A stretch of 52,601 nucleotides of DNA from positions 1 through 52,601 of the forward strand of contig CALXKM010000016.1 in assembly GCA_944388865.1 (NCBI GenBank), given 5' to 3'. A program made the translations under genes and the position numbers. Shown piece after piece: positions 16,980 to 28,137 of this stretch. The DNA comes from an uncultured Duodenibacillus sp. (GTDB taxonomy: Bacteria > Pseudomonadota > Gammaproteobacteria > Burkholderiales > Burkholderiaceae_F). Each line of letters begins with the position of its first letter. Position 1 is the stretch's first letter. Below the pieces are notes generated by a model that saw only the letters and a list, made by a program, of their open reading frames with translations, made no database searches and was not told the origin of the DNA.

Positions 16980-18098
16980 TCAGGGCACAACCTTAATTGT
17001 CATTGATTTATCCAAAACTTTCACATTGTCGGCAATGGAGCGGCTCACCCAGAGCGTCTTCAGATCCGAAGAGACGAGAATGACGCTCAGTTTTTCGCGC
17101 TCAGCGGCGGCCAGCGCCTTTTTCGAACCCATAGCAAAAAGAGCCGTGCACCAGCCATCGGCCGCAGCGCCGTCGGCGTTGACGATGGTGACGCTCGCCA
17201 GATCCGTTGCTGCCGGCTCTCCCGTGACGGCGCTCAGAATATGGCCGTACGTTTTGCCTGCCGATTCGATTTTTCGCTCATAAGCGCCGCTTGTGATCAC
17301 CGATACTGCGCTTGCTTCAAGCACGGCAAGAATCGTATTGCGCTCGGCATCGGGCCTTTGCACGCCGATGCGCCAATTCTGACCGGACGGATTGTTGGCG
17401 ATGAGCGCCACGTTGCCGCCCAAATCGATGATGCCGTGGTCAGCTCCGATGCGCTTCATGTCTTGGACCAACGCCGAACCGATCCAACCCTTGGCAATGG
17501 CGCCCAGATCCAGACTTTGTCCGGCATCAATACGCACGCGGCAGGCCCCAGGAGTTTCATCAACAGCGATGCGTTTGTAGTCGACCTTTTCGAGCGCCTT
17601 TTTAATGTCTTCTTGCTTGGGATGCTTGTCGCCGCCAAAGCCGATCTTCCAGACATTGACGAGCGTACCGATCGTCGGTTCGAAAGCGCGGTCAGACTTT
17701 TGGGCGATCGTTTTGGCTGTTTGCACAAGCGCGGCGATGCGGCAGTCCACGGGCACCCATTGACCCGCATTCTTATTGACTTCGTTTAAGGGGCCGTCGC
17801 CGTGCACGGTAAAAAGCTTTTCGTATTCGGCCACTTTGGCCTCAAATGCATCGGCAAAGCCGGCTGCCGTCTTCTCATCGGCCGCATAGAGCTTGGCCGA
17901 GACAATCGTGCCCATCGAAAGCCCTGCATATCTGGCTTCATAAACCGAATCGGCCTGAGGCGAAGACGAGGAAACGGCCCCAGCGGCAGAGCCCTGCGCC
18001 TGCGCAGCTGCGCTCAAAGGAAAAGTCAAAAACAACGCCGCGCTGCTGATGGCCGCGGCGAGCCCTACGCGTAGATGCCAATTGCCGACTGTGCGCAT
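16980..18098 (-). CDS. apbE: FAD:protein FMN transferase
   Basis: Exported flavin transferase that links FMN covalently to a Thr/Ser of periplasmic or membrane proteins. The 372-residue product starts at ATG 18098 with a clear signal peptide (RVGLAAAISSAALFLTFPLSAAAQA). Motifs are SMGTIVSAKLYA, SLDLGAIAKGW, GIIDLGGNVALI and AAADGWCTALFAMG, all in family order. The signal sequence lacks a lipobox cysteine. The likely client is the FMN-binding protein at 26083-26412, which has the flavinylation-type GAT motif. 45 bases separate apbE from the amidohydrolase; that linkage looks incidental. Confidence 0.94.
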   Translation of the reverse strand: MRTVGNWHLRVGLAAAISSAALFLTFPLSAAAQAQGSAAGAVSSSSPQADSVYEARYAGLSMGTIVSAKLYAADEKTAAGFADAFEAKVAEYEKLFTVHGDGPLNEVNKNAGQWVPVDCRIAALVQTAKTIAQKSDRAFEPTIGTLVNVWKIGFGGDKHPKQEDIKKALEKVDYKRIAVDETPGACRVRIDAGQSLDLGAIAKGWIGSALVQDMKRIGADHGIIDLGGNVALIANNPSGQNWRIGVQRPDAERNTILAVLEASAVSVITSGAYERKIESAGKTYGHILSAVTGEPAATDLASVTIVNADGAAADGWCTALFAMGSKKALAAAEREKLSVILVSSDLKTLWVSRSIADNVKVLDKSMTIKVVP

Positions 18099-18371
18099 GT
18101 ACTCAAACTTGAATTTCTGACGATAAATAGAAGCGGTCGCGTCCTGAAGCAAATCCTGCGACCGCAAAAAAACGTCCGCGACATCAGAAAGCCGGGACGA
18201 TGCCTGACGCAATTTAGCACATTGCACGCGCCTGCACCGTTGCAACTGCGGCGTTGTTGCCGCAAAATACTTTGAGCCCTAGCAACGCAGTTAGCCTCTG
18301 AAGGCGCGCGTGCTTGTATTTTTTTGCGCGGGAGTTTTTTGCTTCACAACTTCAAATAAGGAAGCCTTCTT

Positions 18372-19088
18372 ATGCCTCAAATGACGATTTCCGGTTCAAT
18401 AGATCCGCTCTTGAGCGTGGTTCTCGAAAAGGGCGAGGCGATTTTTGCCGAACGCAACGCCATGGTGTCGATGGATTCGACGCTGGCATTGACGGGCCGA
18501 GCCAAAGGAGGCATTTTTTCGGCGCTCTCGCGTAAATTCCTCAACGATGAAAGCTTTTTCCAGCAGAAAATCGAAGCCGTCGACGGCGCAGGTGAAGTCC
18601 TTCTGACGCCGACGCTTCCGGGCGATGTATGCATCCTGACCTGTGGAGAACACCAATACATGATCTCCGACGGCGCCTACCTGGCAAGCACCGAAACGGT
18701 TGAACTCGAGGCAAAGTCCCAAGGACTAGGGCGGGCATTACTCGGCGACTCGGGCGGATTTTTCGTTATGAGCACCGAAGGCCACGGACAGATTGCCGTC
18801 AGCGGCTTTGGCTCAATGCGCGCCATCGAACTTGACGGGTCCCGTTCGGTCTACGTCGACAACGGGCACCTCGTCGCATGGGATCGAGAGCTTGAGTACG
18901 AACTTGCGCTCAACACCGCAAAGCAAGGCTTTTTCGGCAAACTGCTGCACAGCCAGACCTCGGGCGAAGGCATTGTTCTGAAGTTCTCCGGCCGCGGAAA
19001 GCTTTTCGTCTGCTCGCGCAACCGCGGAGGCTTCGTTGACTGGATGCTCTCTCAGATGCCCCAGGAAAAAGCTCCGAAAAACGACTAA
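18372..19088 (+). CDS. AIM24-family protein (TIGR00266)
   Basis: 238-residue protein of the AIM24/TRAP-like beta-helix family, found in bacteria and in the mitochondrial cristae protein Aim24; biochemical role unknown. Signs of the family are VLEKGEAIFAERNAMVSMD near the N-terminus, the Phe/Gly-rich SALSRKFLNDESFF segment, and GLGRALLGDSGGFFVMSTEGHGQIAVSGFG, followed by VDNGHLVAWD. No signal peptide. AAGGAAG lies ten bases before ATG 18372. It is 443 bases upstream of the envelope operon on the same strand, so co-transcription is possible but not shown. Confidence 0.88.
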   Translation: MPQMTISGSIDPLLSVVLEKGEAIFAERNAMVSMDSTLALTGRAKGGIFSALSRKFLNDESFFQQKIEAVDGAGEVLLTPTLPGDVCILTCGEHQYMISDGAYLASTETVELEAKSQGLGRALLGDSGGFFVMSTEGHGQIAVSGFGSMRAIELDGSRSVYVDNGHLVAWDRELEYELALNTAKQGFFGKLLHSQTSGEGIVLKFSGRGKLFVCSRNRGGFVDWMLSQMPQEKAPKND

Positions 19089-19531
19089 GCGCCGGCTGCC
19101 GCCAAACGAAGCGCTGCTATCAGAGGCAAAAAGCAGAGCGCACCCAAAAAAAACAAATCACCCTCCTTATGACAGATTTGCAACACTTTCTTACAGGAGC
19201 AATTCGACAGTGGGATAATGGGGGTTCATGGTTTGATCAAGGCCGGCTTTTTTGTGCGTTTTTTTGTTGTCCATGCCGTCATCGACTTGCATTCACCTTG
19301 ATTCAAGGCTCTGCGTGCTGAGCAATGTGATGCGAGCAAAGCAACGGCTGAGAAATAGCGTTCTGCCGTCTCAACGAGTGCGTTTGCGCTCGCGGCTTTC
19401 TGCGTGCGGCTTGCTTCAGTCCGCGGACGCCCGTTTTGCCGCGCCCGCAGATTCTTCTGTGCGGATTTCTTTTCCTTTTCAACTTTTCGGCGCTTCTTGC
19501 TTGCTGCGCCGGTTTTTTTGCGTGCTAAAAA
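19089..19531. other. Long leader region of the exported-protein operon
   Basis: 443 bases with no convincing gene. The sequence GGATAATGG near 19212 is a possible -10 element; I could not pair it with a good -35. From about 19240 the plus strand is very T/C-rich with several runs of T (for instance after GCCGGC at 19242-19247). No Shine-Dalgarno sequence precedes the first gene of the operon (GTGCTAAAAAATG). This suggests a long untranslated leader. Confidence 0.4.
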
Positions 19532-20425
19532 ATGAAAACAGCTCTTCTTAAAACCGCCGTTATTTTGTCAATCGGATTGTTCGGCGCCTCCATCAACGCC
19601 AATGCTCAGGCACTTGCCAAATGGCGCGTTGCCGTCTCCGAGCTTCAAATCAGCCCGGCTCTTTCTGCTTCTGCAGCCAAGACCGTCCAGCAGTCGAGTC
19701 TGCGCACGGACATTGAAGACGCCATTCGCAACGGCCGCAAATTCGAAGTCGTCTCGCGCAATACGGCCAAGATGCAGGCTCTGCGCGCCGAGCAGCAGTT
19801 TGCCCAGTCCGGCTTGGCTGCCGGCGACGCCGCCGCCACCGGTCAGATGTCCAACGCCCAGTCGCTTGTCGTCGTCGAAGTCCAAAACTTCGCCTTCGGC
19901 CGCTCGGCAAACAAGATCCCCAACATCGAAAACAAATACCGCATCAGCGACTATGCCAACATCGAGCTCAACGTGCAGATTCTCGACACTACCAAGGGCA
20001 CGATGACGGGGTCCTTCAATGTAGAGGCCAAGGCATCAAGCGGTACGCGCGTGAGCAACTCCGTCGGCTCGCCAAGCCGCGACATTCTCGACAAGGCGCT
20101 TGATCGCGCAGCTGCCGACCTGGCCAACCAGCTCTCCGATACGATTTTTCCGATTACCGTCATCCAGGCCAAGGGCAAGCAGCTCTACGTCAACCGCGGC
20201 GCTGACGGCGGCCTCAAGGTCGGCGACAAATTCATCATCTTCCGTCCAGGTGAAGCTCTGATTGACCCGACCACCGGCGAAAATCTGGGCTCAGCGGAAG
20301 AAGAAGTTGGAACCGCCAAGGTTGTGCGCGTCAATCCGAAATTCACCATCATGGAAGTGACCAACGGCGACGTCGCCCTGATGGAAGCCGGATTCATCCT
20401 GCGCCGCCCGGTTGCTGGAAAGTAA
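19532..20425 (+). CDS. CsgG-like exported protein
   Basis: 297 residues with a Sec signal peptide (ending near NANAQA, residue 26). The central part resembles the CsgG/curli-secretion fold: RVAVSELQISP (the strand-1 motif), DIEDAIRNGRKFEVVSRNTAKMQAL, LVVVEVQNF, and ANIELNVQILDTTKG. Unlike CsgG it has no lipobox cysteine. Residues 207-291 form a C-terminal module (GLKVGDKFIIFRPGEALIDP...VGTAKVVRVNPK) that is repeated in the next gene. No curli subunits are nearby. It is first of six exported-protein genes; 19 bases separate it from the next start. Function unknown; an outer-membrane-associated periplasmic role is inferred. Confidence 0.75.
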   Translation: MKTALLKTAVILSIGLFGASINANAQALAKWRVAVSELQISPALSASAAKTVQQSSLRTDIEDAIRNGRKFEVVSRNTAKMQALRAEQQFAQSGLAAGDAAATGQMSNAQSLVVVEVQNFAFGRSANKIPNIENKYRISDYANIELNVQILDTTKGTMTGSFNVEAKASSGTRVSNSVGSPSRDILDKALDRAAADLANQLSDTIFPITVIQAKGKQLYVNRGADGGLKVGDKFIIFRPGEALIDPTTGENLGSAEEEVGTAKVVRVNPKFTIMEVTNGDVALMEAGFILRRPVAGK

Positions 20426-20444
20426 CTGCCTGCAGGGGACGCAA

Positions 20445-21680
20445 ATGCAAAACACTTTTCTGAACACCTCCATCAAGACGGCTTTAGCGGGCGCGCTTGC
20501 CGTCTGCATCGGGTGCGCTGCGGCCGCAGGCATCACGACGAAGACCGTCAATGCCGAAGGCTACGGCGCCGATCGCAAGGAAGCTGTCAACGCCGCGCTT
20601 GTCGAGGCTGTCGCCAAGGTGCGCGGTTTGTCGATCGTCAACGTCTCTGCCTCTGCCAAGGCTTCGACTTCAACGGGCTTTAATCTTGGCAGCAAATCGA
20701 TTCGCATGGGCGCAGTGAGCGAATCCAACGCCGACGCAACGGCCTCGGAAACCGCAGGCTCCGTCAAGAGCTATGAAGTGATCAGCGTGACGGAAGAAAA
20801 TGGGCGTCTGCACGCCAAGATTTCTGCCGACATCTCCGTCTACAAAGCCGATCAGTCCAACAATCGCCGAAGCATTGCCGTGGTGCCGTTTCGCATTCCC
20901 GAAGATGCCCCTGCTCAGTACGAAAAGTTTCAGCAATTTATCAGTCAGGGTGCGGTCGACTATGTGACGAGCACGCGCCACTTTGCTGTTGTTGACCGCA
21001 GCTACGAAAAGGAGCGCATATTTGAATTCCTGCGGCTTTTGCTGCCCGACGTCAACCGCGACGAGCGAGCCCGCATCGGCAACAGCACCGGCACGGACTA
21101 CCTCGTGGTGGGCGACATCATGAATTATCAGACTCGCAAGACAAAAACCAAAGTTCCGTACACGAACGAAATTCTCGAAAAGGAAACAACTTCGGCTACG
21201 GTTGCTTGGCGCGTCTTGGAGGCTGCCACAGGACAGATACTGGCCGCCGGCACGCTCAAAAAGGACTTCAACTCGATTGATCCCGACATCGGCCGCACGA
21301 TCGGCGAAGAAATTGCCGAAAAGATTGCCGACATCATTTATCCGATCGTCGCCCTTGAATTCAGCAACGGCCGCATTTCGCTTGCCCAAGGCGGCGGCTC
21401 CATGAAAGTCGGCCGCGTCTATACGCTCAATCGCTACGGAAAAGCCCAAATCGACCCCTACACCCGCGAACCGATGGCTCGCGAAGAAATTCCTGTCGGA
21501 AAGGTTCGGATCGTTTCCGTCAGTCCCAAGATCTCCTACGCCGAAGTCATCGACAGCCGCGTTGATCTCTCCGGCATGGGCCCCAAGGAGTACGTCCTTC
21601 GCGCCATTGACGACGGAATGTCCGGATCCTCGCGCGGAGCTGCCAAACCTGCCGTCAAAACCATGACTCCGGCCTGGTAG
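20445..21680 (+). CDS. FlgT/CsgG-like exported protein
   Basis: 411 residues. After a signal sequence (to about residue 28) comes an N-domain EGYGADRKEAVNAALVEAVAKVRG (38-61) like that of FlgT and LPP20-type proteins, then a CsgG-like middle domain beginning RRSIAVVPFR (141-150) with RHFAVVDRSYEKERIFE, DYLVVGDIMNY and VAWRVLEAATGQILAAG. Residues 299-375 carry a C-terminal module homologous to that of the preceding protein (MKVGRVYTLNRYGKAQIDPYT...VGKVRIVSVSPK). FlgT belongs to the flagellar outer-ring, but no flagellar gene is near. ATG 20445 has AGGGG ahead. IGC at 22-24 is a poor lipobox. Confidence 0.75.
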   Translation: MQNTFLNTSIKTALAGALAVCIGCAAAAGITTKTVNAEGYGADRKEAVNAALVEAVAKVRGLSIVNVSASAKASTSTGFNLGSKSIRMGAVSESNADATASETAGSVKSYEVISVTEENGRLHAKISADISVYKADQSNNRRSIAVVPFRIPEDAPAQYEKFQQFISQGAVDYVTSTRHFAVVDRSYEKERIFEFLRLLLPDVNRDERARIGNSTGTDYLVVGDIMNYQTRKTKTKVPYTNEILEKETTSATVAWRVLEAATGQILAAGTLKKDFNSIDPDIGRTIGEEIAEKIADIIYPIVALEFSNGRISLAQGGGSMKVGRVYTLNRYGKAQIDPYTREPMAREEIPVGKVRIVSVSPKISYAEVIDSRVDLSGMGPKEYVLRAIDDGMSGSSRGAAKPAVKTMTPAW

Positions 21681-21706
21681 AAATCAATTAGAGAGAGTTT
21701 TTTGAA

Positions 21707-23161
21707 ATGAAGATTGCACTCAACGTTCTTTCGGCTTCCGTTCTTCTGGCAATGTCGGTGAGCTTTGCATCAAATTCAGCGGCCCAACCTCAAACCGTCG
21801 TGACAACCCCGACAGCAGCGGCCAGCGCTCAGACGCAGGTTGCCTCTGCTGCGCCCGTTGCCGTCGTAACGGTCGAGACCGTCAAAGACATCAATCAGAT
21901 CCCTGTGGCCGATCAGCAGCCCACTGTTAAAAAGCAGCGTCCGAGTCATGCTGTCCGAGAAAAAATTACGGCCTACGTGAAATCCAAGGGCATCGTGATC
22001 GCAACCAATCAAGATGGAAAGACCTTCTATGACGGCTACGCCACGGTCAAGATCAACCGTGCCAGTCCCGACTACGGCAAAGCGCTTGCCATGGCCTATC
22101 AGGAGGCCTACATGGCTGCGCTGGCCAAATTTGCCGAACAGCTCGAGCAAACCGTTGCAGACCGTCTCGAGCGCGATCTCTTCACCGACAGCAGCACCAA
22201 CGCCAGAGAGTTTGCCGCCGAACCCGGACAGAGCAAAATCCAAACGCTCATCGACAAGGGGCTTGAGCTTGCTGGAGCAAAGCTCGATGATGCCTTAAGA
22301 AAGCTTGGCACCACCGAGGCTCAGATCAAGAGCCTTTCGCCGGCCGAAAAGAAGACCCTTTACAAGAACTCGATTCTGCAGACCACCGTGCAGCACGCTT
22401 CTCTTGCCTTGGGCGGCATCAACATTCAGCAGAACTTCATCGAAAGCGATGAAAAGGGCAATGCCGCCGTCGGCGTTCTGATTGCCTACTCGCCCAAAAT
22501 GGCCTCGGTTGCCGAGTCGCTTGCACGCGGTGAAAAGCCTCTGATCCGCGCTGTCGGTCAGCCCTTAGAGGAGCTGCTGCCCTTGAACGAGCCCGAAAAG
22601 CTCGCGCAGAACTTTGGCCCGCGTCTTTTGATTGACAGCTACGGGCCCGTCATCGTGTCTTTCGGCTTGTGGAGCTCTTCGTACACGGGCACCGATGACG
22701 TTCTGGCAGACCAATACGAACAGGCAGCTCTGCGGCAAGCCAATGCCGATGCCAACGCACAAATCGCGCGCTTTCTTTCTGTGTCCTTTACCACCGACTC
22801 TGAAGCCACCAGAGGCGCATCGGCCGAACGCTATGTTGAAAAAGACAAGCAGACGGGACGTGCGGGCGCCGACATTGCCAAAAACATCATCACAGATCGC
22901 TTAAGCGAGCAAAGCGTAGCTCAAGCCAATGCGCGGCTTTCCGGCGTTGAAACTCTCAAGGAGTGGACCTGGCAGATGCCCGAAGGCCAGCTTCTAGTCG
23001 GCGTCGTGAAGGCATACCGCTTTGCCGGCATAGAAAATGCCCGAAAGATCCTCGAGGGGCCGCAGGAAGAGAGTCAGCCAGAACCTCAGCCGCAGGACCA
23101 GAACCCGGTCGGCGCCATCAGCAGTCAAGGAAGTGTTGAGTCTTCGCTTGACGTCTTTTAA
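21707..23161 (+). CDS. Exported protein of unknown function
   Basis: 484 residues, family not recognised. A Sec signal peptide (cut near SNSAA-QPQ, residue 27) is followed by an Ala/Thr/Val-rich linker to about residue 75, then a mixed alpha/beta body. A helical stretch DYGKALAMAYQEAYMAALAKFAEQLEQTV recalls the amino-terminal helix of FlgT/LPP20-like proteins; ALRQANADANAQIARFLSV and EWTWQMPEGQLLVGVVKAY near the C-terminus look like a second such unit. The tail is Gln/Glu/Pro-rich. Lengths and phase place it inside the operon, 26 bases after the FlgT/CsgG-like gene. Probably periplasmic. Confidence 0.7.
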   Translation: MKIALNVLSASVLLAMSVSFASNSAAQPQTVVTTPTAAASAQTQVASAAPVAVVTVETVKDINQIPVADQQPTVKKQRPSHAVREKITAYVKSKGIVIATNQDGKTFYDGYATVKINRASPDYGKALAMAYQEAYMAALAKFAEQLEQTVADRLERDLFTDSSTNAREFAAEPGQSKIQTLIDKGLELAGAKLDDALRKLGTTEAQIKSLSPAEKKTLYKNSILQTTVQHASLALGGINIQQNFIESDEKGNAAVGVLIAYSPKMASVAESLARGEKPLIRAVGQPLEELLPLNEPEKLAQNFGPRLLIDSYGPVIVSFGLWSSSYTGTDDVLADQYEQAALRQANADANAQIARFLSVSFTTDSEATRGASAERYVEKDKQTGRAGADIAKNIITDRLSEQSVAQANARLSGVETLKEWTWQMPEGQLLVGVVKAYRFAGIENARKILEGPQEESQPEPQPQDQNPVGAISSQGSVESSLDVF

Positions 23162-23196
23162 ACCAACTCAATCAAACCAGTAAAAGGAACAGAGCA

Positions 23197-24744
23197 ATGA
23201 GAAACATCAAAAAACTTCTGCTTGCAGCTGCAGTCACGGCCGCTCTTGCCGGCTGCGCAACCACACGCAGCGACTCTCTCGGCCTGGCTGAAAACGAAGG
23301 CGTAAAAACATACGCTGAAGCCTATCAGCCCGCCCGCGACCTGCTCACCGCCGGCAATTTCGACGAAATGAGAGCAAAGATGAAGACTCAGGTCCTCGAC
23401 AAGGACGGCAAGGAGCTCTCCAACGAAGAAATTCACGAAAAGCTTCTTAAGTCGGCAAGCGAACTGTCCCTGATGGAGCGCGGCCTGCTGTCGCTCAATC
23501 TGGGCAAATTTGAACGCGCCCTGTTCTTCTTTGACATTGCCGAAGAAAAGCTCAACTTTGCCGAAGACAATGAAGGCATCGGCGACAAGGGAGCCTCGCT
23601 GTTTAAGTCGGGCATGGCCATGCTCACCGGCGCTTCGGAAATGTCCGACTATGAAGTGCGCAGCTACGAAAAGGTGATGCTGCTCAACTACAAGGCTCTG
23701 TGCTACATGCTGCTTGGCGACCGCAAGGCCTACAACGTCACGCGCCGCGCCATTGACCTGCAGCAGCAGGAATGGGAAAAGTTCCAGCAGAAAAAAGTCG
23801 AACTTGAGGAAAAACTTGCCAAGGACGGCATGGAACTCGGTCCTGACGGCGTACCGGTGCCTGTAAAGGGCGCAGCCGCTCCGAAGGCTGCCGCCGCCCA
23901 GCAGCAGGCTGCCGCTGCTCAGGCCCCTGACATGAATCAGATCATCTCCAACATCAATGTTGATGACCGAACCGAAGAAGTCAAGAAAAAGGCAGCTCTT
24001 GTCACGTCGGCCTACGTCAACCCCTTTGGCGACTACATGAATGCTGTTTTGCAGGAATTCGACAGCCTTGAAGACAAGTCGCTTCGCGACAACGCACGCA
24101 TTTCCTATGAAAAAGTCGTCAAGAACAATAAGGACTGCAGAGCAGCGAAGATCGCTCAAAAGTCCGTCATGAAGGGCATCGGCAAGAATCAAAAGCTCGT
24201 GCAGGTGATCTTGTCAGACGGCTTTGCTCCCTATCAGCTCGAAAAAAGCCAGGAGTTCGTCGTCGGCAAATACCGCGCCACAGTCAACTATTCGAGCGCA
24301 ACGCCTGTTGAGTCGCCCTTGGTTGCCGCCAACGTCAAGGTCGGCGGCAAGAACGTGAAGATGTCGAGCCTCACGAAGATGGAATCGATCATCTTGCGCG
24401 ATGAACAGGACAACCTGCCGTGGCGCACCCTGGACATCGCTCTGGCGCTGCTGCGCTCTGCCGTTGCCAATGACCAGCTCGGCGTCCTAGGCGGGGCACT
24501 TGCGAGCGCAATTCAGCATCCTGATACCCGCTCTTGGCTGAGCCTGCCCAATCAGGTGCTCGTGAGCCGCATTGTTGTTCCCGCCAATCAAAACGCCATT
24601 GAGCTGACGACCGTCGACAAGGACGGCAAGACGCTTGCTGCAACCAAAGTTGAGATCGCCGACAAGGGCCCGACTGTTGTTTATGCTGTCAATTACGGCA
24701 ATCACATTCAGGCCTACGCCAACGCCTTCTCGTGGGTGAAATAA
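23197..24744 (+). CDS. COG3014-type lipoprotein
   Basis: 515-residue lipoprotein: signal sequence with lipobox LAGC at Cys19. The N-terminal half is helical and TPR-like (SELSLMERGLLSLNLGKFERALFFFDIAEEKL, then VMLLNYKALCYMLLGDRKAYNVTRRAIDLQQQEW), followed by an Ala/Gln-rich linker near residues 230-250 and a second half with NPFGDYMNAVLQEF and NLPWRTLDIALALLRSA. This matches the uncharacterised family COG3014, which I recall as a frequent neighbour of LpoB and YcfL. Good ribosome site AAAGGAACAGAGCA. Probably anchored in the outer membrane facing the periplasm. Confidence 0.8.
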   Translation: MRNIKKLLLAAAVTAALAGCATTRSDSLGLAENEGVKTYAEAYQPARDLLTAGNFDEMRAKMKTQVLDKDGKELSNEEIHEKLLKSASELSLMERGLLSLNLGKFERALFFFDIAEEKLNFAEDNEGIGDKGASLFKSGMAMLTGASEMSDYEVRSYEKVMLLNYKALCYMLLGDRKAYNVTRRAIDLQQQEWEKFQQKKVELEEKLAKDGMELGPDGVPVPVKGAAAPKAAAAQQQAAAAQAPDMNQIISNINVDDRTEEVKKKAALVTSAYVNPFGDYMNAVLQEFDSLEDKSLRDNARISYEKVVKNNKDCRAAKIAQKSVMKGIGKNQKLVQVILSDGFAPYQLEKSQEFVVGKYRATVNYSSATPVESPLVAANVKVGGKNVKMSSLTKMESIILRDEQDNLPWRTLDIALALLRSAVANDQLGVLGGALASAIQHPDTRSWLSLPNQVLVSRIVVPANQNAIELTTVDKDGKTLAATKVEIADKGPTVVYAVNYGNHIQAYANAFSWVK

Positions 24745-24757
24745 TTCGTGAATCAGC

Positions 24758-24791
24758 CTCGCTTGAGCCCACACCTTTCGGCTCAGGCGAG
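24758..24791 (+). repeat. Intra-operon hairpin
   Basis: Twelve-pair stem CTCGCTTGAGCC (24758-24769) / GGCTCAGGCGAG (24780-24791) with one G-T pair and a ten-base loop. There is no T-run, so it is unlikely to stop transcription. It may be an RNA-processing or stability element that separates the COG3014 gene from the ycfL-lpoB pair. Confidence 0.6.
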
Positions 24792-24818
24792 CATCATCAA
24801 CATTGAGGTTTTGTCCAT

Positions 24819-25334
24819 ATGAAAAAACTTTGCCTTGCGCTTGCCTGCGGCGCCTTAGTTCTGTGCGGCTGCCAAACGCCCGCCCCTGTGAGCGCCCCAG
24901 AGCCTGAGCCCTTGCTGCTGTCGGCTAATGTCGCCCCCGGCGTTGCCGTTCACTATGACAACGAACTCGTTGCCAGCGCGCTTGAGGTTGTGCGCGCCAA
25001 CATCAACGCCTCGGGCAGACTTCCGAAGCTCACTTTTCAGATCAGAAACAAGATTTCCCAACGCTATCCGATTGAGTACCGCATTGAATGGCTTGATGCC
25101 GACGGCGCCCCGCTGATGGTCTCGAGCGCCTGGCAGCAGGTCACGCTTTCGGGCAATGCCATTCGCGCCGTCACGAGCATGGGCAAGAGCCCCGATGCCA
25201 AGACGGTCAACATCGCGTTGCGCATTCCGCAGCCTGTTGAAATCTTTGTTCCTGAGCCCGATCCCATGGAGCAGATGAAGATGCAGGAAGAATACAACCG
25301 TCAAATGATGCAAAACGCTCAGCAACCGCAATAA
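24819..25334 (+). CDS. YcfL-like lipoprotein (DUF1425)
   Basis: 171-residue lipoprotein with a signal peptide and lipobox-like LCGC (Cys19). The body LTFQIRNKISQRYPIEYRIEWLDADGAPL...WQQVTLSGN...ITSM-like AVTSMGKSPDAKTVNIALR matches the YcfL family, an Ig-like beta-sandwich in the outer-membrane lipoprotein encoded beside lpoB in E. coli. A C-terminal Met/Gln-rich tail of about 25 residues is extra. It directly precedes the LpoB-like gene, which supports the assignment. The function of YcfL itself is not known. Confidence 0.82.
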   Translation: MKKLCLALACGALVLCGCQTPAPVSAPEPEPLLLSANVAPGVAVHYDNELVASALEVVRANINASGRLPKLTFQIRNKISQRYPIEYRIEWLDADGAPLMVSSAWQQVTLSGNAIRAVTSMGKSPDAKTVNIALRIPQPVEIFVPEPDPMEQMKMQEEYNRQMMQNAQQPQ

Positions 25335-25349
25335 CTTTTAGCAACCGTT

Positions 25350-25901
25350 ATGAATACACGCCTTTTTCTTGTCTGCGCCGCAACGAGCTCTTTGCTGCTT
25401 GCCGGCTGCGCCACCACGGGAAGCAACTCTTCTGGCAGCACTTTTGCTCCTGCCATCTTCGGGCACTCCCGCACCGTGTCCATCGTTGACTCCTCGGACC
25501 GCAACAAGCTTGATACGAAGATCTCTCTTTCGGACATCATCGCCTTTGCGGAAAATCTCACCAACAAGATGCTCGCTTCGCCCGTCATCGCCAAGGCAAA
25601 GAAGCCGCCGCGCATCGTCGTCGGCACTTTGCGCCAGAACACGCATGACGAAAACCTGCGCGTCGGGGACATTCAGGACCGCATTCAGGAAGTGCTCTTT
25701 AACTCCGGCGCCGTTCGCGTTCTTGACAGCTCAGCAAACAACTTCGACTACATCATGCGCGCTGAGATCACCGACATCGTCCAGCGCGCTCCCGATGGAC
25801 AAAAGCAGGTGGACTACACCATGAAAATCAAGCTCTTTACCATTGACGGAGAACTCAAGGGCCAGTGGTCTGACGATCTGTCTCTTTTCAAGTCCAGATA
25901 A
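25350..25901 (+). CDS. LpoB-like peptidoglycan-synthase activator lipoprotein
   Basis: 183 residues; lipobox LLAGC (Cys20). The mature domain begins with SDIIAFAENLTNKMLASPVI, then RIVVGTLRQNTHDENLRVGDIQDRIQEVLFNSGAVRVLD, DYIMRAEITDI and the closing DGELKGQWSDDLSLFK, which is the order and spacing of the LpoB/COG3417 family. In E. coli LpoB activates the synthase PBP1b from the outer membrane; it has a long disordered linker there, while here the linker is short (about 25 residues). Whether a PBP1b partner exists cannot be judged from this window. Last gene of the operon; terminator at 25955-25987. Confidence 0.82.
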   Translation: MNTRLFLVCAATSSLLLAGCATTGSNSSGSTFAPAIFGHSRTVSIVDSSDRNKLDTKISLSDIIAFAENLTNKMLASPVIAKAKKPPRIVVGTLRQNTHDENLRVGDIQDRIQEVLFNSGAVRVLDSSANNFDYIMRAEITDIVQRAPDGQKQVDYTMKIKLFTIDGELKGQWSDDLSLFKSR

Positions 25902-25954: not shown

Positions 25955-25987
25955 TCGGCCGTTGATTCTGAAGCGGCCGATTTTTTT
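25955..25987 (+). terminator. Rho-independent terminator of the exported-protein operon
   Basis: Perfect stem TCGGCCG (25955-25961) / CGGCCGA (25974-25980) with a 12-base loop and seven T in a row directly after it. It lies 53 bases after the LpoB-like stop codon. Confidence 0.92.
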
Positions 25988-25997
25988 CAAGCAGCAA

Positions 25998-26042
25998 AAA
26001 GCCGGCCCTTTTAGCGCACATTCTGCAAAAAAGACCGGCTTT
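25998..26042 (-). terminator. Terminator of the FMN-binding-protein gene
   Basis: Inverted repeat AAAGCCGG (25998-26005) / CCGGCTTT (26035-26042). Read leftwards it is followed by TTTTTGC. It lies 40 bases beyond the FMN-binding protein's stop codon and back-to-back with the operon terminator. Confidence 0.75.
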
Positions 26043-26082: not shown

Positions 26083-26412
26083 TTACTGAGCCTTCTTCAG
26101 AGCGTTGTTGACGGCTTCAATGATTCCCTTGGAGGAATTGGTGGCGCCCGTCACGCCCTGCACGCCTTCGGTACCGTTCTTCTCAACGATTGCCTTGGAG
26201 ACGTTCTTCTCAGCAGCCTTGAGCAGCATTTCGGTTTCGCCGTGCTTGACGACCTTCACGCCCGTGATCTTGCCGGAGGCAACGGTCACTTCAACCTGAA
26301 TCTGGCTGGCATTGCCCTTGCCTTCGCCCGTGTAGGTGCCATCCTTGTAAGCGGCGGAAACACCAGTGCACAGAAGGGCAGCAGAAGCTGCAACGATGAG
26401 TTGCTTGATCAT
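26083..26412 (-). CDS. Periplasmic FMN-binding protein
   Basis: 109-residue protein: Sec signal peptide (to Ser19-Ala20, VSA-AYKDG) and one FMN-binding domain, the domain type fused to many fumarate and urocanate reductases. Landmarks are YKDGTYTGEGKGNASQIQVEVTV and the flavinylation motif TGATNSS with acceptor Thr91. The Asp normally six residues before the acceptor is Gln85 (VQGVTGAT). ApbE at 16980-18098 could attach the FMN. It follows the fumarate-reductase-like gene on the same strand and would serve as its electron donor or mediator. Start ATG 26412, not the longer frame upstream. Confidence 0.9.
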   Translation of the reverse strand: MIKQLIVAASAALLCTGVSAAYKDGTYTGEGKGNASQIQVEVTVASGKITGVKVVKHGETEMLLKAAEKNVSKAIVEKNGTEGVQGVTGATNSSKGIIEAVNNALKKAQ

Positions 26413-26566
26413 TTTGACTCCTAGATAAGTAAGTCTGTAGTAGAAAGAAAAAAGGAAGTCCTGCAACGCACTGTCAGAGCACTGCCTCTGCCAGTACGGC
26501 ACCGCGCAATAATGCGCGCAAGCAGGCCGCGCTGTCAAGAAAAAGACTTGTCAAAACAACGCTAAA

Positions 26567-26645
26567 GCCCGCAAACGTCGGCCTGCCGATGGCAAACCGA
26601 CTGCGGGCTCGCACGCTCCCGGCAATGGGAGCTTTGCTCCATTGC
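26567..26645 (-). repeat. Two tandem hairpins between the flavoprotein and the FMN-binding-protein gene
   Basis: Read leftwards, the first hairpin is GCAATGG/CCATTGC (26622-26628 and 26639-26645) with inner AGC/GCT pairs. The second is GCCCGCA (26567-26573) / TGCGGGC (26602-26608), with an inner GTCGG/CCGAC. The second ends in CTTTAGCGTTGTTTTG, only weakly terminator-like. Together they may cause partial termination or protect one of the two messages. Confidence 0.6.
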
Positions 26646-26730
26646 GCCATCCTCTCAACAGTGCCTTGTACAGAACGATCCGCCAAGGCGGGAAAAGAAG
26701 AAGAATAGCACACCCCTGCTTAACGCAAGA

Positions 26731-28137
26731 TTAGTGAGCCTTGGCGTAAGCAGCAGCGCCCTGACCAGCGATGCGGCCATAGACGATGATGTCGGCCTGA
26801 GCATTGCCGCCGAGACGGTTGCCGCCATGCACGCCGCCCGTCACTTCACCAGCAGCGAAGTAGCCCGGGATCACCTTGCCCTTGGCATTGAGCACTTCAG
26901 CCTTGGTGTTGATCTTCACGCCGCCCATCGTGTGGTGCACGGCAGGCGTAACGCGAATAGCGTAGTAGCCCGGCTTGTCAAGCGGACGTTCCATCTTGGT
27001 GCGGCCGCAGCAGCTGTCCTTGCCGGCCTTCTGATCCTTGGCGTACTGAGCCATCGTGGCCTTAAGAGCATCGGCAGGAACGCCCATGTTCTTGGCAACT
27101 TCATCGAGCGTCTTGCCCTGGATGACCATGTCGGGGGTCTTGATGTAGCCTTCGATAGCCTTCAGAGACTTGCGGACGTCTTCATCAAAGAACATGAAGG
27201 CGTGCCCGGTGGGCTGCTTGAGGATGGCTGCGGAAACAACGTCACGCGTGCCGAGCTCGTCGCAGAAGCGCTTGCCTTCGGTATTGATCAGCACAGCGCC
27301 GTTGCCGCGCACGGCTTCGGTCACCATCACGCCCGTCTTTTCAACAACGGTCGGATGCGTCTGAATCTGGTCCATATCCACGAAGGCTGCGCCGATCTTT
27401 TCGCTCAGCGTGATGCCGTCGCCCGTGGCGCCCGGATGGTTGGTCGTTGCAAAGCCCTTCAGGCGCGGAATGATCTTGCTCACCATTTCGTTGTTGCCGG
27501 CAAAGCCGCCTGCGGCATTGACCACTGCCTTGGCATCGATTTCATAGGTCTTGCCGTCGTTCTTGACTTTGACGCCGGTCACAGCGCCCGTCTTCTTGTC
27601 CTGGATCAGATCCACAACCTGGCTCTCGGTGCGCAGATCAATCTTGCGAGCCTGAACGGTGTTGTAGAGGGTCTTGACGACTTCAGGACCAACAGAAGCG
27701 CCGCCCGTGGGACGGTGGCAGCGCTTGTTGGTGGCGCCGCCCATGAAGCCCACGTCGTTGAAGTCGCCGCCGAGGCTGATGAGCCACTGAACGGCAGCGT
27801 TGGAATTCTTCACGAGGGTGCGCACGAGTTCAGGATTGTTGCGATTGTGACCGCCCTTCATCGTATCCTGATACATCTGCTCAAGGCTGTCCTTGATGCC
27901 GAGCTTGGCCTGCTGCGGAGTTTCAGCAGCATTGATGCCACCCGTTGCGCGAATAGTATTGCCGCCAGGGAAGGCCATCTTTTCAAGAATCACAACCTTG
28001 GCGCCCGCATCGTGAGCCGTAATAGCTGCGGCCATGCCGGCGCCGCCAGCGCCGATCACAACCACGTCGGCCTTTTCACCAGCCTGAGCCATGCCAAAGG
28101 CGGCGGCAATCATCGAAGCGATAACAAGTTTCTTCAT
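26731..28137 (-). CDS. Periplasmic fumarate-reductase-type flavoprotein
   Basis: 468 residues: signal peptide (IASMIAAAFGMAQA) followed by an FAD-binding domain (VVVIGAGGAGMAAAITA, residues 25-41; GGNTIRATGGINAAET) and the catalytic cap. Residues matching the active site of Shewanella flavocytochrome c3 are His261 (QTHPT), Arg298 (GTRD), His401/402 (VHHTMGG) and Arg441 (GGNRLGG), so it should reduce fumarate or a related enoate such as urocanate or methacrylate. No haem motif and no FMN domain are present; the next gene supplies the FMN domain separately. An unusual Cys-Cys pair (376-377, SCCGR) lies in a cap loop. Confidence 0.93.
   Translation of the reverse strand: MKKLVIASMIAAAFGMAQAGEKADVVVIGAGGAGMAAAITAHDAGAKVVILEKMAFPGGNTIRATGGINAAETPQQAKLGIKDSLEQMYQDTMKGGHNRNNPELVRTLVKNSNAAVQWLISLGGDFNDVGFMGGATNKRCHRPTGGASVGPEVVKTLYNTVQARKIDLRTESQVVDLIQDKKTGAVTGVKVKNDGKTYEIDAKAVVNAAGGFAGNNEMVSKIIPRLKGFATTNHPGATGDGITLSEKIGAAFVDMDQIQTHPTVVEKTGVMVTEAVRGNGAVLINTEGKRFCDELGTRDVVSAAILKQPTGHAFMFFDEDVRKSLKAIEGYIKTPDMVIQGKTLDEVAKNMGVPADALKATMAQYAKDQKAGKDSCCGRTKMERPLDKPGYYAIRVTPAVHHTMGGVKINTKAEVLNAKGKVIPGYFAAGEVTGGVHGGNRLGGNAQADIIVYGRIAGQGAAAYAKAH

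Follow-up and report, generated by a model that had tools for sequence, protein, structure and literature searches.

We find that positions 19,532 to 25,901 of the window, the 52,601-nucleotide stretch of an uncultured Duodenibacillus sp. analyzed here, encode what appears from its protein families to be a so far unnamed envelope system, also encountered in distantly related bacteria, with flagellar ring proteins and LpoB as its relatives. No description of such a system was found under the family names searched in the openly licensed literature, in keeping with the first-pass annotation, which regarded it as a candidate for an undescribed system. The segment consists of six consecutive plus-strand ORFs (g1 to g6), each encoding an exported protein, with intergenic gaps of 19, 26, 35, 74 and 15 bases. 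A hydrophobic signal sequence, judged by eye, is present at the N terminus of all six products, and three of them carry a lipobox (LAGC in g4, LCGC in g5 and LAGC in g6), confirming the exported-protein operon that had been proposed. The terminator proposed to close it corresponds to a terminator-like hairpin behind g6, the strongest of 15 such patterns in the region, where 10.7 are expected by chance. A promoter scan of the region returned a single weak sigma-70-like site, fewer than chance, and an Rfam scan gave no match at gathering scores, the upstream intergenic region included (Table 1).

Table 1. Features of the six-gene operon and its flanks (positions in the window).
Feature	Position	Strand	Basis
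Upstream intergenic region, presumed promoter/leader	19089..19531	+	Left boundary of the segment that relatives G017 and G018 lack
g1, FlgT-like protein of short form: CsgG-type core and FlgT_C domain; has a signal sequence and lacks a lipobox	19532..20425	+	Pfam FlgT_C, CsgG; paralogous to g2
g2, FlgT-like protein of full length: weak FlgT_N, CsgG-type core and TsaP/FlgT_C-type C-terminal domain behind a signal sequence	20445..21680	+	Pfam CsgG; family profile matches
g3, DUF6844 protein with a signal sequence, related to PDB 4QVR	21707..23161	+	Pfam; 4QVR match
g3 repeat 1, residues 82-272, possibly SHS2/LPP20-like	21950..22522	+	
g3 repeat 2, residues 294-446, possibly SHS2/LPP20-like	22586..23044	+	
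g3 C-terminal tip LDVF, behind a low-confidence tail	23147..23158	+	Conservation of the aromatic final residue among family members
g4, TPR lipoprotein: TPR superhelix about residues 35-330, beta domain 332-510	23197..24744	+	Lipobox, model, TPR matches
g5, YcfL family lipoprotein (DUF1425)	24819..25334	+	Pfam DUF1425/YcfL (PF07233), 61.2 bits, cut-off 28.3
g6, LpoB family lipoprotein, short form	25350..25901	+	Pfam LpoB (PF13036), 37.1 bits, cut-off 22.3
Intrinsic terminator-like hairpin	25955..25980	+	9 pairs, run of seven T, behind last gene g6

The gene families of the operon are kept together across phyla. Among 33 named loci collected with the FlgT-like profile, 17 combine genes for all four of TPR protein, LpoB, DUF6844 and FlgT-like protein within a single cluster. 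In nine of these full clusters, a short lipoprotein ORF occupies the gap between the TPR protein and LpoB, and DUF1425 matches were obtained for all six of the nine gap ORFs that were scanned (four above and two under the cut-off). The gene order here is FlgT-FlgT-DUF6844-TPR-YcfL-LpoB, and elsewhere TPR-(YcfL)-LpoB followed by either DUF6844-FlgT or FlgT-DUF6844. Because the order varies among loci, the linkage reflects more than inherited order, and the reappearance of the same families together in distant genomes points to co-occurrence beyond chance. No additional neighbor gene recurs with the full set across distant lineages (families in at least three loci). A second type of neighborhood was also seen, in which a 413-aa lipoprotein and proteins of 360–366 and 229–240 aa accompany DUF6844 and a FlgT-like protein.

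The gene set is rare yet phylogenetically broad. DUF6844 is present in five of 398 genomes of the phylum, all five of which carry LpoB beside the TPR protein; within the family of the host (67 genomes), short-type LpoB occurs in seven, DUF6844 in eight and both in six. The first-pass annotation had made much depend on the genes being kept together in relatives. This stands for distant relatives, in which the families are linked across phyla, but not for the host genus, where DUF6844 is found in only one of ten genomes. The same distribution bears on the idea that the products are an envelope-stability or vesicle-control lipoprotein set that forms no ring, each protein acting individually as a spacer or chaperone between outer membrane and cell wall. 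Three lipoproteins and a TPR protein would suit that role, and LpoB adjoins the TPR protein in 60 of the 398 genomes, 55 of them without DUF6844. We nevertheless consider such a set unlikely, as DUF6844 accompanies the FlgT-like gene in 30 of the 33 loci, themselves selected by the FlgT-like profile (L050 has only a partial DUF6844 match, and in L036 and L051 the gene lies on the other strand, in L051 about 6.6 kb away), and the two families also occur without the lipoprotein trio, for example in L018.

Two related genomes (G017 and G018) align to the window as far as 19,087 and 19,106 and resume at 26,028 and 26,083, the operon segment being absent from both at the same place; another genome, G011, has no matching left flank in the stretch compared. 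The notion of a mobile island was rejected: the G+C content of the segment is 56.1% against 56.3% for the window, and the two edge stretches compared share no direct repeat of more than 9 bases. A search of 72,556 plasmid records with g2 gave three, each below 30% identity. Identities to genome G059 are 70% for g1, 68% for g2, 57% for g3, 71–74% for g4, 61% for g5 and 78% for g6, values on either side of that for GlnS (75%); those to G064 are 52% for g1, 41% for g2, 32% for g3 and 66% for g6, against 63% for GlnS. By sequence comparison, a recent distant donor for the operon appears unlikely.

The first two genes encode the FlgT-like proteins. Pfam assigns g1 to FlgT_C (32.2 bits, cut-off 27) and, barely above the cut-off of 20.8, to CsgG (20.9 bits), and g2 to CsgG (26.5 bits), with FlgT_N falling below its cut-off in g2 (13.9 bits) and FlgT_C exceeding its own in g1 only. 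Together with the assignments of g5 and g6, these matches substantiate the CsgG/FlgT-like, YcfL and LpoB identities first read from the translations. Family matches among 29 FlgT-like members are to CsgG in 26 (E up to 0.01), LpoB in 17, FlgT_M in six, FlgT_N and LPP20 in two each and FlgT_C in one. The family profile matches CsgG and, through its C-terminal domain, TsaP of type IV pili (6ve2, E 5.4e-10); TsaP entries are LysM proteins, whereas Pfam finds no LysM domain in g1 or g2. The final residue of g2 is a tryptophan (codon 21675–21677).

The third protein belongs to DUF6844 (PF20891; 73.3 bits, cut-off 27) and matches PDB 4QVR, the Francisella protein FTT_1539c, over its full length, so that the two form one protein family. 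FTT_1539c is characterized, in the portions of the literature available, only as an immunoreactive hypothetical protein: sera of mice that had received outer-membrane vesicles recognize it, and it appears among the immunodominant antigens (PMC10963506, PMC4207810). A fold search with the two halves of DUF6844 returned 4qvr first and Tip-alpha and Lpp20 next, and DUF6844 may be a tandem SHS2/LPP20-type protein; LPP20 lipoproteins are themselves present in three Sulfurimonas operons. The SHS2 fold is shared by FlgP, FlgT, Lpp20 and dodecin, and FlgQ resembles a repeat of two FlgP units, according to part of one report (PMC12222027). The last residue is F or W in 29 of 30 non-redundant DUF6844 proteins, and position −2 is acidic in 25 of 30; g3 itself carries V there.

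The CsgG-type core shared with the curli secretion channel allows for an outer-membrane pore, as the first-pass annotation had suggested in proposing a pore or ring: FlgT/CsgG-like proteins would form a channel that the other products feed or gate, perhaps to export the DUF6844 protein. The CsgG matches above favor this reading, as does the recognition of the Francisella protein by vesicle sera in the available parts of PMC10963506 and PMC4207810. However, the simple lipobox pattern is missing in 37 of 38 FlgT-like proteins, g1 included; the cysteine of g2 sits in a poor context and is not present in its nearest relatives. The alignment to CsgG (110 columns, probability 68, E 4.9e-5) ends ahead of what we take to be the position of the second membrane hairpin, and the stretch at that site, 38 residues in g2 and 26–52 in relatives, is by eye shorter than in CsgG. 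The FlgT_C domain of g1 is a further difference from CsgG. We found no other CsgG match in the host genome and no substrate-like gene that recurs alongside the complete set in distant lineages (families in at least three loci). The pore is thus weakened to the point of being improbable, and the ring-type relatives favor the ring.

The remaining three genes encode the lipoproteins. No Pfam or NCBIfam family exceeds its cut-off for g4, the TPR lipoprotein to which the first-pass annotation gave the label COG3014 and whose family has the lipobox pattern in 21 of 21 members. Its structure model (pLDDT 79) gives generic TPR matches in a fold search and no convincing match for the beta domain; its N terminus weakly matches the lipoprotein chain 9hiv_D in sequence (E 0.004). 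The YcfL and LpoB families of g5 and g6 are adjacent in identical order in E. coli, where no TPR, DUF6844 or FlgT-like gene lies alongside. All 15 aligned members of the g6 group match PF13036 at E up to 0.1. Against the NCBIfam equivalog for the PBP1b activator proper (TIGR02722), g6 scores 32 bits where 110.55 are needed, and the group profile reaches E. coli LpoB in the PDB only at E 0.4. The two proteins are 17% identical, and the distance from the lipobox cysteine to the first conserved aspartate is 42 residues in g6 and 59 in its E. coli counterpart, the only enterobacterial LpoB in the comparison.

Membership of g6 in the LpoB family and the adjacency of ycfL and lpoB in E. coli are consistent with a regulator of peptidoglycan synthesis, in which LpoB and its partner lipoproteins would activate a class A PBP from the outer membrane while the FlgT/CsgG-like proteins position LpoB. 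E. coli LpoB works with the UB2H-containing PBP1b, and the first-pass annotation had proposed a test for a PBP1b homolog with that domain. No UB2H domain was found in a PBP of the host genome (98.8% complete): the sole UB2H match is below the cut-off and lies, by reading of its sequence, in Mfd, and the one class A PBP with a Transgly domain carries an OB domain (PCB_OB). A PBP-sized UB2H match is also missing from 16 of 21 operon-bearing genomes, many of them bins of unestablished completeness, and from 29 of the 60 in which LpoB and the TPR protein are neighbors. Across the 398 genomes, LpoB and UB2H do co-occur above expectation, although the 79 LpoB genomes contain the TPR protein in 61 cases and UB2H in 47. 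A further 48 UB2H genomes have no strong LpoB, as would be expected from Pseudomonas, where the UB2H domain of PBP1b binds a different protein, LpoP, and not LpoB (PMC7267771, available in part). With the shorter linker of g6 also against it, we doubt this regulator, and the proposed link of the operon to peptidoglycan synthesis through PBP1b found no support here.

Flagellar H-ring and basal-disk proteins form outer-membrane-associated rings, as described in parts of PMC6375700 and PMC12222027. The FlgO/FlgP/FlgT (FlgQ) proteins of polar flagella share with the operon FlgT-like domains, an outer-membrane lipoprotein and, putatively, SHS2/LPP20-like repeats. The operon differs in that its lipoprotein matches LpoB and not FlgO, DUF6844 takes the place of FlgP, and TPR and YcfL lipoproteins are added. 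A search of the 98.8% complete host genome for FlgI, the flagellar P-ring gene and the flagellar gene searched, gave no match. Modified accessory rings of flagella or type IV pili, serving those machines where present, would suit the FlgI matches in 14 of 21 operon genomes and the TsaP-like C-terminal domain, but are the least probable alternative, given that the other seven genomes (the host and six others) have no FlgI match and no flagellar or pilus genes were recognized by eye among the recurrent neighbors.

We favor, at a probability of roughly 0.45, a single outer-membrane-anchored periplasmic assembly, a ring or scaffold of the FlgP/FlgT (basal disk/H-ring) type that is independent of the flagellum. 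The basis of this reading is the linkage of the families across phyla, the three lipoboxes, the two FlgT-like profiles and the DUF6844–4QVR relationship; the roles of the products are those that we infer. The DUF6844 protein, with its two putative SHS2/LPP20-like repeats, would build an oligomeric periplasmic body together with the FlgT-like proteins, and the LpoB-family, YcfL and TPR lipoproteins would anchor this body at the outer membrane. DUF6844 might dock through its acidic-aromatic C-terminal tip onto another component, perhaps the TPR protein, much as the SSB tail docks. LpoB would serve as an adaptor of the assembly; activating a UB2H-type PBP1b would not be its role here. The whole may support an appendage, an export path or envelope stability.

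More tentatively, LpoB may have originated not as an activator of peptidoglycan synthesis but as the adaptor lipoprotein of such a ring machine at the outer membrane, working apart from the flagellum and made up of the TPR lipoprotein, YcfL, LpoB, FlgT-like proteins and DUF6844. In it, DUF6844 would form the ring and carry, in its acidic-aromatic tail, the signal for assembly. The association of LpoB with PBP1b would have come later, in enterobacteria; these would have retained just ycfL-lpoB, acquired the long linker seen in E. coli and lost the other genes. A survey of more than 400 species with strict cut-offs, available in part, restricted LpoB and the UB2H docking domain of PBP1b to enterobacteria, with a joint origin (PMC3060616). 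In our survey, LpoB family members lie next to a conserved TPR lipoprotein in 60 of 398 genomes of the phylum, and a PBP-sized UB2H match is lacking in 29 of these. The survey yields a testable prediction on the role of LpoB before PBP1b. It also provides an initial genomic context for families of unknown function, namely DUF6844, DUF1425/YcfL, the TPR lipoprotein and the FlgT-like pair. If the proposed assembly is real, parts of a flagellar-type ring would be in use without a flagellum.

Six plus-strand genes (g1 to g6) lie in a row in the window, separated by 19, 26, 35, 74 and 15 bases from g1 to g6. All six products have signal-like N termini, as judged by eye, and those of g4, g5 and g6 carry lipoboxes. 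The TPR lipoprotein g4 matches no Pfam family above the cut-off, and g6 scores 32 bits against the NCBIfam LpoB equivalog, below the 110.55 needed. The gene layout, signal sequences and Pfam matches thus bear out the first-pass annotation, which had described a six-gene exported-protein operon. All parts that match anything fall in families already known. In the openly licensed papers searched, we found no mention of DUF6844 or COG3014 and, under the names tried, no description of the six-gene set.

Features of the operon, its flanks and related loci
Feature	Location	Family or remark
Operon, g1 to g6	window 19532-25901	plus strand
g1, FlgT-like		FlgT_C and CsgG (Pfam, above cut-off)
g2, FlgT-like		CsgG (Pfam, above cut-off)
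g3		DUF6844 (Pfam, above cut-off)
g5		DUF1425 (YcfL) (Pfam, above cut-off)
g6		LpoB (Pfam, above cut-off)
Terminator-like hairpin	window 25955-25980	3' of g6
AIM24-family gene	window 18372-19088	immediately upstream of operon
ApbE, FMN_bind, FAD_binding_2 protein	window 16980-18245 and 26083-28137	on the operon's two sides
Second cluster type	L018:5866-11762; L015:5674-11531	genomes G051, G053
LPP20-domain lipoprotein	L035:866-1798	25.9 bits (cut-off 25.9)
LPP20-domain lipoprotein	L043:1349-1963	37.6 bits (cut-off 25.9)
LPP20-domain lipoprotein	L056:595-1500	34.3 bits (cut-off 25.9)
Additional 242-aa exported protein	L035:163-888	no Pfam match
Divergent second DUF6844 copy	L048:7896-8969	between DUF6844 and FlgT-like gene
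LpoB-family match	L063 (G034:C158:2029-2214)	in-frame TGA

Two close relatives, G017 and G018 (GlnS identity 96% and 85%), have flanks collinear with the window, with 48 and 195 bases, respectively, replacing the operon. The operon's composition is uniform with its surroundings, and comparison of its edge stretches revealed no flanking repeats. The AIM24-family gene is also the left neighbor of the empty site in the two relatives. The ApbE, FMN_bind and FAD_binding_2 protein on either side suggests that the operon adjoins a flavin-based respiratory reductase locus.

DUF6844 is present in 8 of 67 family genomes, 1 of 10 of the genus and 5 of 398 sampled from the phylum, including the own genome. 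LpoB (PF13036, E up to 0.001) matched in 14 of the 67, seven of them with the short type (frames of 179-263 aa whose match begins at profile position 2-7). Six of these seven also have DUF6844; the remaining matches begin further into the profile, mostly in longer frames. The TGA within the LpoB-family frame of one relative (L063) could reflect decay or an assembly error. No LpoB was found near DUF6844 in G051 and G053, where the neighborhood differs: the second cluster type there encodes, besides DUF6844 and FlgT-like proteins, a 413-aa lipoprotein and exported proteins of 360-366 and 229-240 aa, with no Pfam family above cut-off among those scanned. Relatives of the lipoprotein occur in 7 loci and of the 360-366-aa protein in 10, labeled Opitutales, Alphaproteobacteria, Chlorobium and others.

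The FlgT-like protein profile (A3) retrieved 33 named loci, 30 of them with a DUF6844 protein (a partial match in L050, on the opposite strand in L036, and about 6.6 kb off on the opposite strand in L051), a co-occurrence biased by A3 seeds drawn entirely from DUF6844 loci. The profiles used for this count and the next were built from the first relatives and then iterated on the 33 loci. Genes for the TPR lipoprotein, LpoB, DUF6844 and FlgT-like proteins cluster in 17 loci, labeled Sutterella (2), Turicimonas (1), Sulfurimonas (4), other Campylobacterota (1), Alteromonas (2), Planctobacterium, Litorivivens, Halodesulfovibrio, Alcaligenaceae (2), Bordetella parapertussis (1, a metagenome bin) and Paceibacterota (1), although many sources are metagenome bins and labels may be wrong; several of the other 16 stop at a contig edge. 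Nine clusters have a gap between the TPR protein and LpoB that holds a short lipoprotein ORF, and all six scanned match DUF1425 (four above, two below cut-off); the Alteromonas loci lack this gap. That gene order varies among lineages speaks for the genes being functionally linked. Sulfurimonas operons add lipoproteins with an LPP20 domain, encoded upstream of the TPR gene. Of the DUF6844 proteins counted, all but the second copy of L048 end in F or W.

LpoB and UB2H, its docking domain on PBP1b, are described in the literature as confined to enterobacteria (PMC3060616). In the 398 genomes, with gene coordinates transcribed by hand, we counted LpoB in 79 (78 at E up to 3.2e-18, plus the own genome with a weak match), the TPR protein in 65 (E up to 0.001, with a profile built with the own genome and one other sampled genome) and UB2H in at least 95 (matches that cover 63 or more of 85 positions, in frames of 736-933 aa, listed down to about E 1.5e-5). 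Of the 79 genomes with LpoB, 61 also have the TPR protein, encoded next to LpoB in 60 of them, and 47 have UB2H among the matches listed; Fisher values are descriptive only, given the hand transcription, these bounds on the UB2H count and the non-independence of related genomes. Among the matches listed, 29 of the 60 with the adjacent pair lack UB2H; UB2H is present in 16 of the 18 genomes that have LpoB but no TPR protein, and occurs without strong LpoB in at least 48. All five DUF6844 genomes are among the 60, and 55 have the pair without DUF6844. Among the 30 best-scoring of 78 LpoB loci (about 3.4 kb each), the TPR protein occurs in 29, a YcfL match in 22 and a separate CsgG/FlgT-like gene downstream in 6. 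E. coli keeps ycfL-lpoB, but the other operon genes are absent beside them.

The operon could act as a PBP activator, a possibility weakened by the occurrence of a near full-length UB2H in a 766-824-aa frame, counted as PBP1b, in only 5 of 21 operon-bearing genomes (completeness known for four), leaving out a 43-position sub-cut-off match in a 747-aa frame of G474. UB2H matches of some kind occur in 10 of the 21, above cut-off in 8, most of the extra ones in 1149-1219-aa frames. The single Transgly-domain protein of the own genome carries PCB_OB, and the one UB2H match in that genome is weak and lies in a frame reading as Mfd. The possible reading as a pore has lost support.

With FlgT-like proteins, outer-membrane lipoproteins and what may be a tandem SHS2/LPP20-like protein, the set of parts comes nearest to FlgO/FlgP/FlgT and FlgP/FlgQ, yet the flagellar P-ring protein FlgI has no match in the own genome and six others, 7 of the 21. 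We therefore favor a flagellum-independent ring or scaffold that the operon products would form, anchored in the outer membrane, with LpoB as its putative adaptor. For such an assembly we infer ring formation, docking of the acidic-aromatic C-terminal tip of DUF6844 proteins and a physiological role.
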